From: Acidobacteriota bacterium
Lineage (GTDB): Bacteria > Acidobacteriota > Thermoanaerobaculia > Multivoradales > Multivoraceae
Direction: 5' to 3'
NCBI GenBank assembly: GCA_011523565.1
Contig: WTGL01000173.1
Span: 1 to 50,101 of the forward strand
Length of the DNA: 50,101 nucleotides
How positions within the stretch are numbered: position 1 is the first letter of the stretch; each line of letters opens with the position of its first letter. A model generated the notes under the pieces. The model searched no databases, had not been told where the DNA came from, and saw only the letters and a program-made list of their open reading frames with translations. Positions 419-3,755 of this stretch are shown in pieces. Made by a program: the position numbers and the translations under genes.

Positions 419-2158
419 ATGCCCTCCTTGCCTGACCGCCGCTCGTACACCTTCGGGCCCTACCTGCTCGATGTCGGTCAGCGGCAGCTACTCAGAAACG
501 GCCAGAAGGTAGCCATTCGCCCGAAGATCTTCGACACGCTGCGCGCACTCGTCGAGAACAGTGACCGGCTCCTGCACAAGGAGGAGTTGATGGCGATCGT
601 CTGGCCGGACGCCGCGGTCGACGAAAGCAATCTGATGCACAATCTCTCCGTCCTGCGGAAGGTCCTGGGGCAGGACAAGGAGACCCAGTACGTCGTCACG
701 GTTCCCGGCCGGGGCTACCGGTTCACCGCTCCCGTCGAAGCCACTCTCGAAGGGTCGATCGCCGTCAGGCCCTTCACCAACATGACGCCCGATCCGGAGC
801 AGGACTTCTTCTGCGACGGCGTGGCGGAAGAGATCATCGACGCTCTTGCGGCCGTCGAGGGCCTGCGGGTTGTCGGCCGAACGTCGTCGTTCGACCGTCG
901 TCTGCGTGATCTCGGTGCCTCCGGCGTCGGTGAGAGCCTGGGCGTCTCGTCGATTCTCGAAGGTAGCGTGCGTCAAGCTGGCGAGCGCCTCCGCATCTCC
1001 GCGCAACTGATCCGGACTTCGGACGGCACGCAGCTCTGGTCCGAGCACTATGACCGGGAGCTTGGCGATGTCTTCGATATCCAGGAGGACATCGCTGAAG
1101 CGATCGTCGTGCGGGTGCGCACCAAGCTCTTGGATCCGCATCCCGGTCCCTTCGTACCGCGCTACACGGACAACCAGGAGGTCTACCGGCTCTACCTGGA
1201 GGCCCGGTACTGCGCCAATCAGCAGACCGGCCGCCGGCTCCAGCAGGCGATCGGCTTTCTGGAGCGGGCGATCGAGCTGGAACCGGGTTTCGCTCGCGGT
1301 CATGCGCAACTCTCGGTGTGCTACGTCAACCTGGCGGTGTACGGCTACCTGCCGGTATCGGAGACGGTGGCCAAGGCGGAAGCCGCGGTCCGGCGGGCGC
1401 TGGAGCTCAACGACTCGAGCGTGCTCGCGTATCGGGCCCAGGGTCTCCTGAGCGCGGTGTTTCGATGGGACTGGGCGGCATCGGAGCGGGCGTTCCTGCG
1501 GGCTTTGGAGCTCGACCCCGGCAACTCAATGGCCCACTACTCGTACGGGAACCACTTCCTTTCGCCGGTCGGCCGCGTCGAGGAAGCGGAACGTCAGATC
1601 AGAGTTGCCGTCGACCTGGATCCCCTGGCACCCGTGTTCGCCCAGGGGTTGTGCCAGATCCTCTACTACAGGCGGCGTTTCGAAGAGGGCGTCGAGCAGG
1701 CTCGGCACACACTTGCCCTGGAAGGCGAGTATCCCATCGTGCGCTCGCTGCTGGCGGCCTGCTATAGCGCTCTGGGTCGAACGGACGAGGCAGTCCGGGA
1801 GCGTCAGTTGCACTTGCGGAACACGGGCCGCCACGAAGAAGCGGAAGCGATCGGGAAGGTCTACGCGAAGGACGGGGAGCCGGGCGTCCTCCGCTGGATG
1901 GTGGACTGGCAGTTGAAGCGGACGAGCAGCGGGGAGGACCGGTCTGCGGCTCTGGCGATGCTCTACGCCTGGCTCGGCGAAAAGGAAGCTGCATTGAACT
2001 GCCTGGAGACTGCGCTCGGTGCGAAGTTCGGGGCCGTGCTCTGGACCAAGGTGCATCCGGCCTTCGACTGTCTGCGTGATGAACCACGCTTCCAGCAGTT
2101 GGTGGATGGCATGGGCGTCAACGATCCCCGGGTCGCGACGCCCCAGGCGGTCGCCTAG
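419..2158 (+). CDS. Winged-helix (OmpR/CadC-type) regulator with TolB-like and TPR domains
   Basis: A cytoplasmic regulator of 579 residues if it starts at ATG 419; an in-frame ATG at 320 would add 33 low-complexity residues that match no domain, so 419 is preferred. Residues about 10-107 form a Trans_reg_C winged helix (FGPYLLDVGQRQLLRNG, then the wing motif VPGRGYRF). Residues about 113-237 resemble the TolB-like/adenylate-cyclase-associated domain (IAVRPFTNM, ILEGSVRQAGERLRI, LWSEHYDREL). From about 254 to 480 follow TPR helices, with AIELEPG and ALELDPGNSMAHY as clear repeats. No membrane segment is visible, unlike true CadC. Proteins of this layout are very common in Acidobacteriota and are thought to bind DNA and sense a partner or ligand through the TPRs. 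Its target is unknown. Confidence 0.85.
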   Translation: MPSLPDRRSYTFGPYLLDVGQRQLLRNGQKVAIRPKIFDTLRALVENSDRLLHKEELMAIVWPDAAVDESNLMHNLSVLRKVLGQDKETQYVVTVPGRGYRFTAPVEATLEGSIAVRPFTNMTPDPEQDFFCDGVAEEIIDALAAVEGLRVVGRTSSFDRRLRDLGASGVGESLGVSSILEGSVRQAGERLRISAQLIRTSDGTQLWSEHYDRELGDVFDIQEDIAEAIVVRVRTKLLDPHPGPFVPRYTDNQEVYRLYLEARYCANQQTGRRLQQAIGFLERAIELEPGFARGHAQLSVCYVNLAVYGYLPVSETVAKAEAAVRRALELNDSSVLAYRAQGLLSAVFRWDWAASERAFLRALELDPGNSMAHYSYGNHFLSPVGRVEEAERQIRVAVDLDPLAPVFAQGLCQILYYRRRFEEGVEQARHTLALEGEYPIVRSLLAACYSALGRTDEAVRERQLHLRNTGRHEEAEAIGKVYAKDGEPGVLRWMVDWQLKRTSSGEDRSAALAMLYAWLGEKEAALNCLETALGAKFGAVLWTKVHPAFDCLRDEPRFQQLVDGMGVNDPRVATPQAVA

Positions 2159-2212
2159 GAGTCGAGTCGCGGCGTCCGCGCCGCGCTGACGCACAGGAAA
2201 CAGGCCTGTTCC

Positions 2213-3034
2213 ATGCAAGTCCGCGAGATCGACGCTTACGGCGGCGCCGCCTTGATTACTGGCGCGTCGAGCGGTATTGGCGAGGCCTATGCGCGCCGGC
2301 TCGCCGCGGAGGGCATGGATCTCGTGCTGGTCGCCCGTCGCGCCGACCGCCTCGAGAAACTGGCGCGGGAACTGCGCTCCGCGTCGGGAATCACCGTGCA
2401 TGTGGTGCCTCAGGACCTCATGGACCGCGATGGTCCACGGCTCGTGTTCGACGCCGTGGACCGTCTCGGAATCGAAATCGGGGTGCTGGTGTCCAACGCG
2501 GGCTTCGGTACCTACGGCCGCTTCATCGACCAGGATCCCGAGCTTCAATTGCAGATCCCGGAAGTCAACAACCGGGCGGCCGTGGGTCTGGCGGCGATTC
2601 TCGCTCCGCGCCTCGTCGAGCGAGGGCGCGGCGCCATGATCTTCCTGTCGAGCACGGCCGCGTACCAGCCGGTGGCGTTCGAGGCTGTCTACGGCGCGTC
2701 GAAGGCGTTCAACCTGATGTTCGGCGAAGCGCTCTGGGCGGAACTCGCCGAACACGGAATCGACGTGATCGTGCTCTCCCCGGGGTTCACGCCTACCGAG
2801 TACCAGCGGAAGGCGGGCATGGGCGAGCCCCAGCCGATCACCGGATGGACGAGTCCGGAGCAGGTCGTGGACGCAAGTCTTCGGGGGCTGGGCCGAAGGT
2901 CCTCGGTCGTGCCGGGATGGCGCAACCGGGTCGTCATCTTCCTGATGCGGATCCTGACGCGGCGCGCCGCGGCGCGGCTGACCTACCGGGTCAACAAGCC
3001 GGCGGACCGGTCCGGTTCGGCAACAGCGGACTAG
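2213..3034 (+). CDS. Short-chain dehydrogenase/reductase (SDR)
   Basis: A classical SDR of 273 residues, the usual family length. The N-terminal Rossmann motif GASSGIGEAYA (about residues 17-27), the NAG element (VSNAGFGTYG), a catalytic Ser in FLSSTAAYQ and the YxxxK pair (Y160, K164 in YGASK) are all present. The basic ARRADRLE after the second strand suggests NADP(H) preference. It follows the TPR regulator by 54 bases on the same strand, so the two may be co-transcribed, and it meets the deiodinase gene tail to tail with a 4-base gap. The substrate cannot be told. The C-terminal tail after residue 230 is basic and hydrophobic (IFLMRILTRRAAARL), as in DltE/YqjQ-like SDRs that lie at the membrane. 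Confidence 0.88.
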   Translation: MQVREIDAYGGAALITGASSGIGEAYARRLAAEGMDLVLVARRADRLEKLARELRSASGITVHVVPQDLMDRDGPRLVFDAVDRLGIEIGVLVSNAGFGTYGRFIDQDPELQLQIPEVNNRAAVGLAAILAPRLVERGRGAMIFLSSTAAYQPVAFEAVYGASKAFNLMFGEALWAELAEHGIDVIVLSPGFTPTEYQRKAGMGEPQPITGWTSPEQVVDASLRGLGRRSSVVPGWRNRVVIFLMRILTRRAAARLTYRVNKPADRSGSATAD

Positions 3035-3038
3035 GCGC

Positions 3039-3722
3039 CTAACCCGCGGTCGCTTCGCTCCCGCCGCGCAGCCCGCCGTAGTTGTCCTCGAGGAACTCCT
3101 CGAGTTCGTCGGTGTTGAAGAGGAACGGTCCCATGCCGCCCTTGTAGGCGATCGTGCCGCCCTGATCGATCACGTAGATCCGCTCGGGCCACCCGGCATA
3201 GCAGGCGTTCGCGATGTTCGAGATGTCGTCGACCAGCGTCCGGGTCCTGACGTCCATCTCCTCGACGAACTTGGTCGCCAGGTCCATCCGTTCGACCATC
3301 GTCTTCGGCTGGTCGAAGATCAGCTCGTTGGCCACGTTCTTCGGGGCCTGCCACTCGTCGTCGGGATGGGCTTCCTTGATGTAGATGTAGCTGAACTCGA
3401 TCGCCGGACTCCACTCCTCACGCAACTCCTCGAGCCGGGCCACACGGGCCCGGAAGGGCGGTCACGTGTAGCTGCCGAAGACGAGGACCAGGGGCTTGGC
3501 GGCCCAGAGGTCGGAGAGCCGCGTCTCCTCGCCGTCGACGACGGACAGCGCGAGGTCGGGCGCCAGTTCGCCGACCTGGAGAATGCCTTCCGTCCGGATG
3601 TCGTATTCGTTGATCTTGATGAAGCCGCGCTCCGCGAGGAAGCGGTAGCCCTTGTAGCCGCCCCAGCCGAGCGCGCCGGCGACGACCACCCCGCAGGCGG
3701 CGATTGTGATCCAGCGTTTCAT
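3039..3722 (-). CDS. Iodothyronine deiodinase-like selenoprotein (Sec encoded by in-frame UGA)
   Basis: A 227-residue protein read through one in-frame TGA at 3462-3464 (residue 87). Both sides of the TGA match the deiodinase family: PLVLVFGSYT-U-PPFRARV corresponds to the vertebrate GSCTUPSF site. YIKEAHPDDEW (E117, H119) matches the conserved YIEEAH segment, and WPERIYVIDQGGTIAYKG the C-terminal PERLYIIQEG region. The Cys two residues before Sec in DIO1 is Tyr85 here. One N-terminal membrane segment (about residues 4-23) anchors a thioredoxin-fold domain, as in animal deiodinases. Start ATG has GGGAG 8 bases upstream. Family members remove iodine reductively from iodothyronines; bacterial substrates are unknown, and a peroxidase/thiol role is possible. 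Standard gene callers would split it at 3462. It lies 63 bases after the thiolase gene. Confidence 0.9.
3435..3453 (-). promoter_or_regulatory. Bacterial SECIS-like hairpin downstream of the Sec codon
   Basis: On the minus strand the eight bases after TGA are followed by CCGGGCC, loop CGTGT, and GGCCCGG: a perfect 7-bp stem. The loop lies 16-20 bases after the UGA and has G at its second position followed by U. This fits the known bacterial SECIS pattern, an apical loop about 16-37 bases downstream with a G in the first two loop positions, which SelB binds. The hairpin lies inside the coding region and encodes part of PFRARVARL, so it is under dual constraint. Confidence 0.75.
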
Positions 3723-3755
3723 GGTGAAGTCTCCCTGTTCGTAGAACTGTTGGGC

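Follow-up and report, generated by a model that had tools for sequence, protein, structure and literature searches.

A stretch of 50,101 nucleotides from an Acidobacteriota bacterium, referred to here as the window, carries two minus-strand open reading frames (3462-3722 and 3039-3443) that share one frame, interrupted by a TGA. The locus raises the question of whether these are two short genes or a single selenoprotein gene of the iodothyronine deiodinase family and, if the latter, whether its product acts as the animal enzymes do, which remove iodine from thyroid hormone. Deiodinase-like proteins of bacteria with selenocysteine (Sec) or Cys were reported from the Sargasso Sea in 2005 (PMC1088965), and 22 Sec sequences of the family were counted in the GOS survey of 2008 (PMC2398784). 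The remark in the initial annotation that such proteins had been noted before, with their function unknown, agrees with these papers and with a later review (PMC13188914).

One reading frame through an in-frame UGA

When the TGA at 3464-3462 is read as Sec, the region 3722-3039 of the minus strand forms a single gene of 227 codons that ends at a TAG (3041-3039), with the residues VLVFGSYT-U-PPFRAR around the TGA. The initial annotation had proposed this fusion with exact coordinates and the same protein length. Its expectation that automatic annotation would return two pieces was borne out, as ORF calling yields two ORFs. The features of the locus are listed in Table 1.

Table 1. Features of the deiodinase-family locus, in window coordinates
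Feature	Positions	Strand	Basis
Complete deiodinase-family selenoprotein gene, 227 codons + TAG	3039..3722	minus	Reading frame; Pfam T4_deiodinase, 7.9e-33; same-genus orthologue, 81% identical, with the same TGA
Possible ribosome-binding site GGGAG, upstream of ATG 3722	3731..3735	minus	Sequence inspection
Predicted N-terminal membrane-anchor helix, residues 2-31	3630..3719	minus	AlphaFold2; borderline hydropathy, peaking at 1.61 (KD19) at residue 4
Thioredoxin/peroxiredoxin-fold catalytic domain, residues 48-214	3081..3581	minus	Pfam span; Foldseek Dio2/Dio3
In-frame UGA, selenocysteine 87, active site GSYTUPPF	3462..3464	minus	Frame and TGA conservation among relatives
SECIS-like hairpin (stem of 7 bp, CCGGGCC/GGCCCGG; loop CGUGU, 15 nt past the UGA)	3435..3453	minus	Sequence and family/background comparison
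Loop-D edge YIKEAHPDDEW: Tyr114, Glu117, His119, Trp124 = Dio2 Tyr157/Glu160/His162/Trp167	3351..3383	minus	Y/E/H in 84/84 rows, W in 67/84
Cys174, candidate resolving cysteine	3201..3203	minus	Sole other Cys of the catalytic domain; putative role
W178-P179-E180-R181, Pro replacing the Dio Phe gate, then conserved Glu-Arg	3180..3191	minus	P179 in 84/84 rows, R181 in 83/84

The orthologue in a genome of the same genus (G015) has an identical 227-codon layout with the TGA at codon 87, and a single TGA stands at the same position in seven other relatives of the order and class, each 31-41% identical over the full alignment. A scan of 84,980 species genomes, from which 80 loci were retained, extended this pattern to Acidobacteriota, Planctomycetota, Myxococcota, Verrucomicrobiota, Alphaproteobacteria, Chloroflexota, Armatimonadota and others. 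The equivalent of codon 87 is TGA in 71 of these loci and TGC or TGT (Cys) in the remaining 9, and the family tree requires at least 8 changes between Sec and Cys.

The comparison of G015 with the genome that carries the window (G000) gave dN/dS values of 0.143/0.897 (approximately 0.16) before the TGA and 0.088/0.496 (approximately 0.18) after it. Downstream of the TGA the two genes differ at 8, 13 and 40 sites in codon positions 1, 2 and 3, so that 40 of 61 differences are in third positions. These substitutions show purifying selection downstream of the TGA, and the low ratio together with the third-position excess indicates that the second half is translated in the same frame.

The splitting of the locus by ORF calling is what would be expected of two separate genes or of a pseudogene, with the TGA as a true stop or a sequencing error for Cys. 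We regard this reading as very improbable, since the TGA is kept across independent genomes and phyla, and since the selection downstream, the SECIS-like hairpin and the presence of the Sec machinery (see below) all speak against it. The orthologue in G015, the 71 TGA loci and the downstream purifying selection rule out a stop or an error at this codon. The possibility of a sequencing error, which had been set out beforehand as a ground for rejecting the fusion, is thereby removed.

Selenocysteine signal and machinery

Bacterial selenoprotein genes are expected to have a SECIS hairpin 3' of the UGA whose apical loop carries a G near its start. Such a hairpin directly follows the codon here, with G as the second loop base. 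Its folding energy as a single sequence is not exceptional (z −1.57); since such energies are uninformative at this GC content, a test against the family and the background was used instead. The rule applied called for at least 6 pairs, a loop of 3-6 nt, G in loop position 1 or 2, and the loop 14-28 nt past the codon. It was satisfied in 51 of 72 UGA forms, in 0 of 9 Cys forms and, as background, in 953 of 12,802 in-frame sites elsewhere in these genes (7.4%). Fisher tests of the UGA forms, uncorrected for relatedness, gave p = 5.5e-5 for the comparison with the Cys forms and p = 1.5e-40 for that with the background. A MAFFT alignment of the DNA around the UGA introduced gaps and was set aside as a source of covariation. 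In the Cys forms the peptide at the hairpin site is similar, but the hairpin is missing, which indicates that the hairpin tracks the UGA and not the peptide. Its position in the coding region is of the bacterial type, whereas animal deiodinases (Dio) use an element in the 3' untranslated region.

All four genes of the Sec machinery, whose absence had been named as the other ground for rejection, were found in G000. These are selB (contig C213, an ORF of 635 aa), selA (C222:11820-13133, 435 bits), selD (C141:18269-19189, 259 bits) and selC. The last is split between contigs: a search with the G015 selC region placed the 5' part, including the anticodon TCA, at the very end of contig C67 (9989 of 9989) and the 3' part at the start of contig C193, from base 1. 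A search of G000 with the Rfam tRNA-Sec covariance model returned just Ser/Leu and other ordinary tRNAs; the best match (51.9 bits, above the cut-off) is a tRNA-Ser(TGA) and a further one is a tRNA-Ser(GCU) interrupted by Ns, and both were rejected as selC. The apparent lack of selC is a practical trap, arising only because the contig ends inside the gene. The same model gave matches of 66-75 bits in 12 of 12 relatives tested, and ARAGORN identified a tRNA-SeC with anticodon TCA in 11 of these.

Approximately 55 bases of the selC 3' part are repeated approximately 87 bases further on in C193 (L160, 1-142; the end of C67 is L159), and the stretch read in G015 has a single copy. The second copy probably broke the assembly. 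Two more repeat families, with many copies in G000, flank selC in G015 (L112 617-748 and 1606-1796). Another Acidobacteriota genome, G095, has two tRNA-Sec genes with anticodon TCA (L109 and L119).

Among 99 relatives, selB was found in 92 and selA above the cut-off in 90, and all 10 further UGA-bearing genomes of the phylum have a selB match, above the cut-off in 9. The Sec trait is near universal in the group, and its co-occurrence with the UGA gene alone is therefore weak evidence.

Fold and active site

The best Pfam match of the window protein is T4_deiodinase (PF00837; 114.2 bits against a gathering cut-off of 27), and AhpC-TSA is also matched (2.6e-8). A phmmer search of PDB sequences returned Dio2 (5.5e-24) and Dio3 (2.7e-23), with the next match at 6e-4. 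The AlphaFold2 model, built from an alignment of 49 rows (pLDDT 91.7, pTM 0.82), consists of the N-terminal helix followed by a thioredoxin/peroxiredoxin domain. Comparison of this model with 350,542 PDB chains using Foldseek placed mouse Dio2 first (3.6e-16, TMt 0.84) and Dio3 second (2.4e-14, TMt 0.81), above ResA/TlpA-like thioredoxins and peroxiredoxins. Membership of the deiodinase family is thus supported by sequence and by the modelled fold, the two comparisons that the initial annotation had recommended. The resemblances on which it relied were also recovered: the TGA falls at the animal Sec position, as the alignment and the GS.TUPPF site agree, the YIKEAH and PERIYVI...GG...IAYKGG segments are seen in direct alignment to mouse Dio2 and Dio3, and the animal-like layout of the anchor is reproduced by the model helix, with borderline hydropathy. 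The NCBIfam model of a deiodinase family protein (NF038285, deiodinase_rel), which has 347 positions and an additional N-terminal region, matches residues 49-209 (E 9e-50) with 170 bits against a cut-off of 250. By NCBI's own rule the window protein is therefore not a member of that family.

The active site was compared over 84 bacterial rows, using the numbering of mouse Dio2 and Dio3 and the roles assigned to Dio2 residues (relay, gate, clamp) in the structural work (PMC11592359). Dio2 Ser127, Thr129, Sec130, Tyr157, Glu160 and His162 correspond to Ser84, Thr86, U87, Tyr114, Glu117 and His119. The proton relay proposed for a functional iodothyronine deiodinase, formed by these Dio2 residues other than the Sec, is present in the window protein and kept in 84/84 rows, and position 87 is Sec or Cys. 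The later Glu-Arg pair is retained as Glu180 and Arg181 (Dio2 Glu225 and Arg226), the former being Glu in 38 rows and Asp in 29.

Three other features of the animal enzymes are missing. The second relay His (Dio2 His182, Dio3 His219) is replaced by Pro139, a Pro in 62 of the 84 rows and a His in 5. The Phe gate (Dio2 Phe224, Dio3 Phe258) is replaced by Pro179, at what we take to be the position where thioredoxin-fold proteins carry their cis-proline. The Lys/Arg clamp (Lys241/Arg275) is replaced by Met197, at a position that varies among the rows; this clamp is also absent in Dio1. With the network kept and the gate, relay His and clamp lost, the chemical end of the site appears animal-like while the thyronine-specific contacts are missing. 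Because these three substrate-contact features fail, the sequence does not support functional identity with an iodothyronine deiodinase, and thyroid hormone is an unlikely substrate.

The motifs of other selenoenzyme types were also compared. Peroxiredoxins carry the motif PxxxT/SxxC(U). In the window protein the spacing from Ser84 to U87 is right, but residue 80 is Leu instead of Pro. A UxxC motif is likewise absent, the window protein having UPPF and 71 Sec relatives UPP(F/Y).

In 83 of the 84 rows the catalytic domain has one or more Cys residues in addition to position 87, and in 66 exactly one. Such a Cys occurs at position 152 (42 rows), 135 (26), 153 (9) or elsewhere, and at 174 only in the window protein and G015. 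This distribution suggests a resolving cysteine that is placed differently in different lineages. The proximal Cys of Dio (position 85) is present in 4 bacterial rows and absent from the window protein.

The window protein thus shares with animal Dio1-3 (4tr3, 9h48) the fold, GS.TUPPF, the Y..EAH..D.W edge of loop D, the later Glu-Arg pair and a predicted N-terminal membrane helix. With the known bacterial deiodinase-like selenoproteins it shares the Pfam family, the active-site Sec, a bacterial SECIS and the occurrence of Sec and Cys forms. It differs from them as described in reviews of 2022 and 2026, which give the family the motif UxxC (PMC9312934; PMC13188914, PF00837 row), in that the site is UPPF in it and in its relatives, and the second Cys lies at another position. 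The bacterial family is already known, and the window protein is a further member in the animal-like UPPF form.

Evolution, neighborhood and possible function

In a family tree built with Dio2 and Dio3, the only two animal sequences of a quick search, these two are placed within the bacterial UPPF family (a 31-row group, SH-aLRT 93), on a long branch whose exact place is unsettled. The family is patchy in the phylum (15 of 297 genomes), and within the genus the gene was found only in G000 and G015 among 21 genomes. These two share a colinear block of a short-chain dehydrogenase/reductase (SDR), the deiodinase and a thiolase that starts near window position 2218; in the other species of the genus, matches are confined to a paralogous thiolase and the upstream stretch. 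At the edge of the block lies an interspersed repeat of approximately 65 bp (window 2154-2224), of which dozens of copies, 80-97% identical, occur across the genomes of the genus.

The neighbors (the SDR, the thiolase, a synthase-like protein with a ChsH2 OB domain and a DUF3604 protein) give no indication of the substrate. A search for a conserved gene neighborhood in approximately 80 loci returned only clusters confined to closely related genomes and frames antisense to the gene. No report of bacterial deiodinase activity was found in the literature covered, from which most subscription journals are absent.

Other forms of the protein were seen in the family. Same-order relatives (L023, L024, L025, L027, L028 and L029) have a Cys form, GSH(S/T)CPVYR, with a lipobox-like N-terminus (e.g., LTAGCFPK), on a separate branch. 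Longer Sec proteins of 444 and 454 aa (L030 and L031), with GCLTUPPF and a long C-terminal region, form a distant branch. A further Cys form is part of one long frame of 560 aa (L232 4864-6546) whose N-terminal region is TPR-like and which may be a fusion.

On these comparisons, the window protein truly belongs to the deiodinase family as a Sec enzyme. The catalytic network is retained but three substrate-contact features are missing, and thyronines are probably not its substrates. We consider it fairly likely that it is a membrane-anchored reductase in which the selenolate would remove an electrophile, either a halogen or a peroxide oxygen, and be regenerated by a second Cys together with thiols. 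SelB and Sec-tRNA(Sec) would insert Sec at UGA 87, guided by the hairpin directly after it, and the predicted product would be an N-terminal helix, presumably anchored in the membrane, bearing the thioredoxin/peroxiredoxin-fold domain. The Sec87 selenolate would abstract an electrophilic atom from a small substrate molecule, and the network of Ser84, Thr86, Tyr114, Glu117 and His119 may protonate the leaving group. The oxidized Sec could then be reduced through a selenenyl-sulfide with Cys174 and an external thiol, by analogy with a recycling route, similar to that of peroxiredoxins, that has been proposed for animal Dio. The atom removed may be a halogen, taken from a phenolic compound, or a hydroperoxide oxygen, and to each we give somewhat less than an even chance.

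The protein could share only ancestry and fold with Dio and be a Se-dependent hydroperoxide reductase of the peroxiredoxin or glutathione peroxidase kind, with Sec87 attacking the O-O bond. The fold, the AhpC-TSA match, the ResA and peroxiredoxin structures that rank after Dio2 and Dio3, the thioredoxin-like Pro in place of the Dio-specific Phe and the second Cys in most rows all agree with such an enzyme. Plain peroxidase chemistry would, however, not require the near-invariant Y..EAH edge and the Ser-x-Thr-Sec-Pro-Pro-Phe site, and we hold this account to be a serious possibility that falls short of probable. More doubtful is that the protein is truly a reductive dehalogenase acting on phenols or tyrosines that bear iodine or bromine, and that the animal deiodinases descend from this bacterial stock. 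The conserved network and the position of Dio2 and Dio3 inside, not outside, the bacterial UPPF family favor this view, against the loss of the Phe gate, relay His and clamp, a tree whose internal order is unresolved and whose animal branch is long, and a lack of recognized halogen-metabolism genes adjoining the gene.

The ResA/TlpA-like structures directly below Dio in the fold ranking and the predicted membrane anchor would also suit a membrane-tethered thiol-disulfide oxidoreductase in which Sec replaces the attacking Cys. This function is improbable, given that UPPF has no second Cys three residues on, leaving neither CxxC nor UxxC, and that the sequence scores far better to Dio. A bolder reading is one in which the bacterial UPPF enzymes are Se-dependent halophenol dehalogenases and the animal deiodinases a late offshoot that exchanged the thioredoxin-like Pro for a Phe gate and gained the His and Lys/Arg contacts; we consider it unlikely.

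Bacterial deiodinase-like selenoproteins have been known for approximately twenty years without a function. The gene of the window protein is intact, the genome has the full Sec machinery, and the UPPF site and a near-complete animal catalytic network are accompanied by natural differences, with Pro for Phe and a moved second Cys. This combination offers a small enzyme that can be expressed and used to explore the role of the deiodinase fold before thyroid hormone existed.
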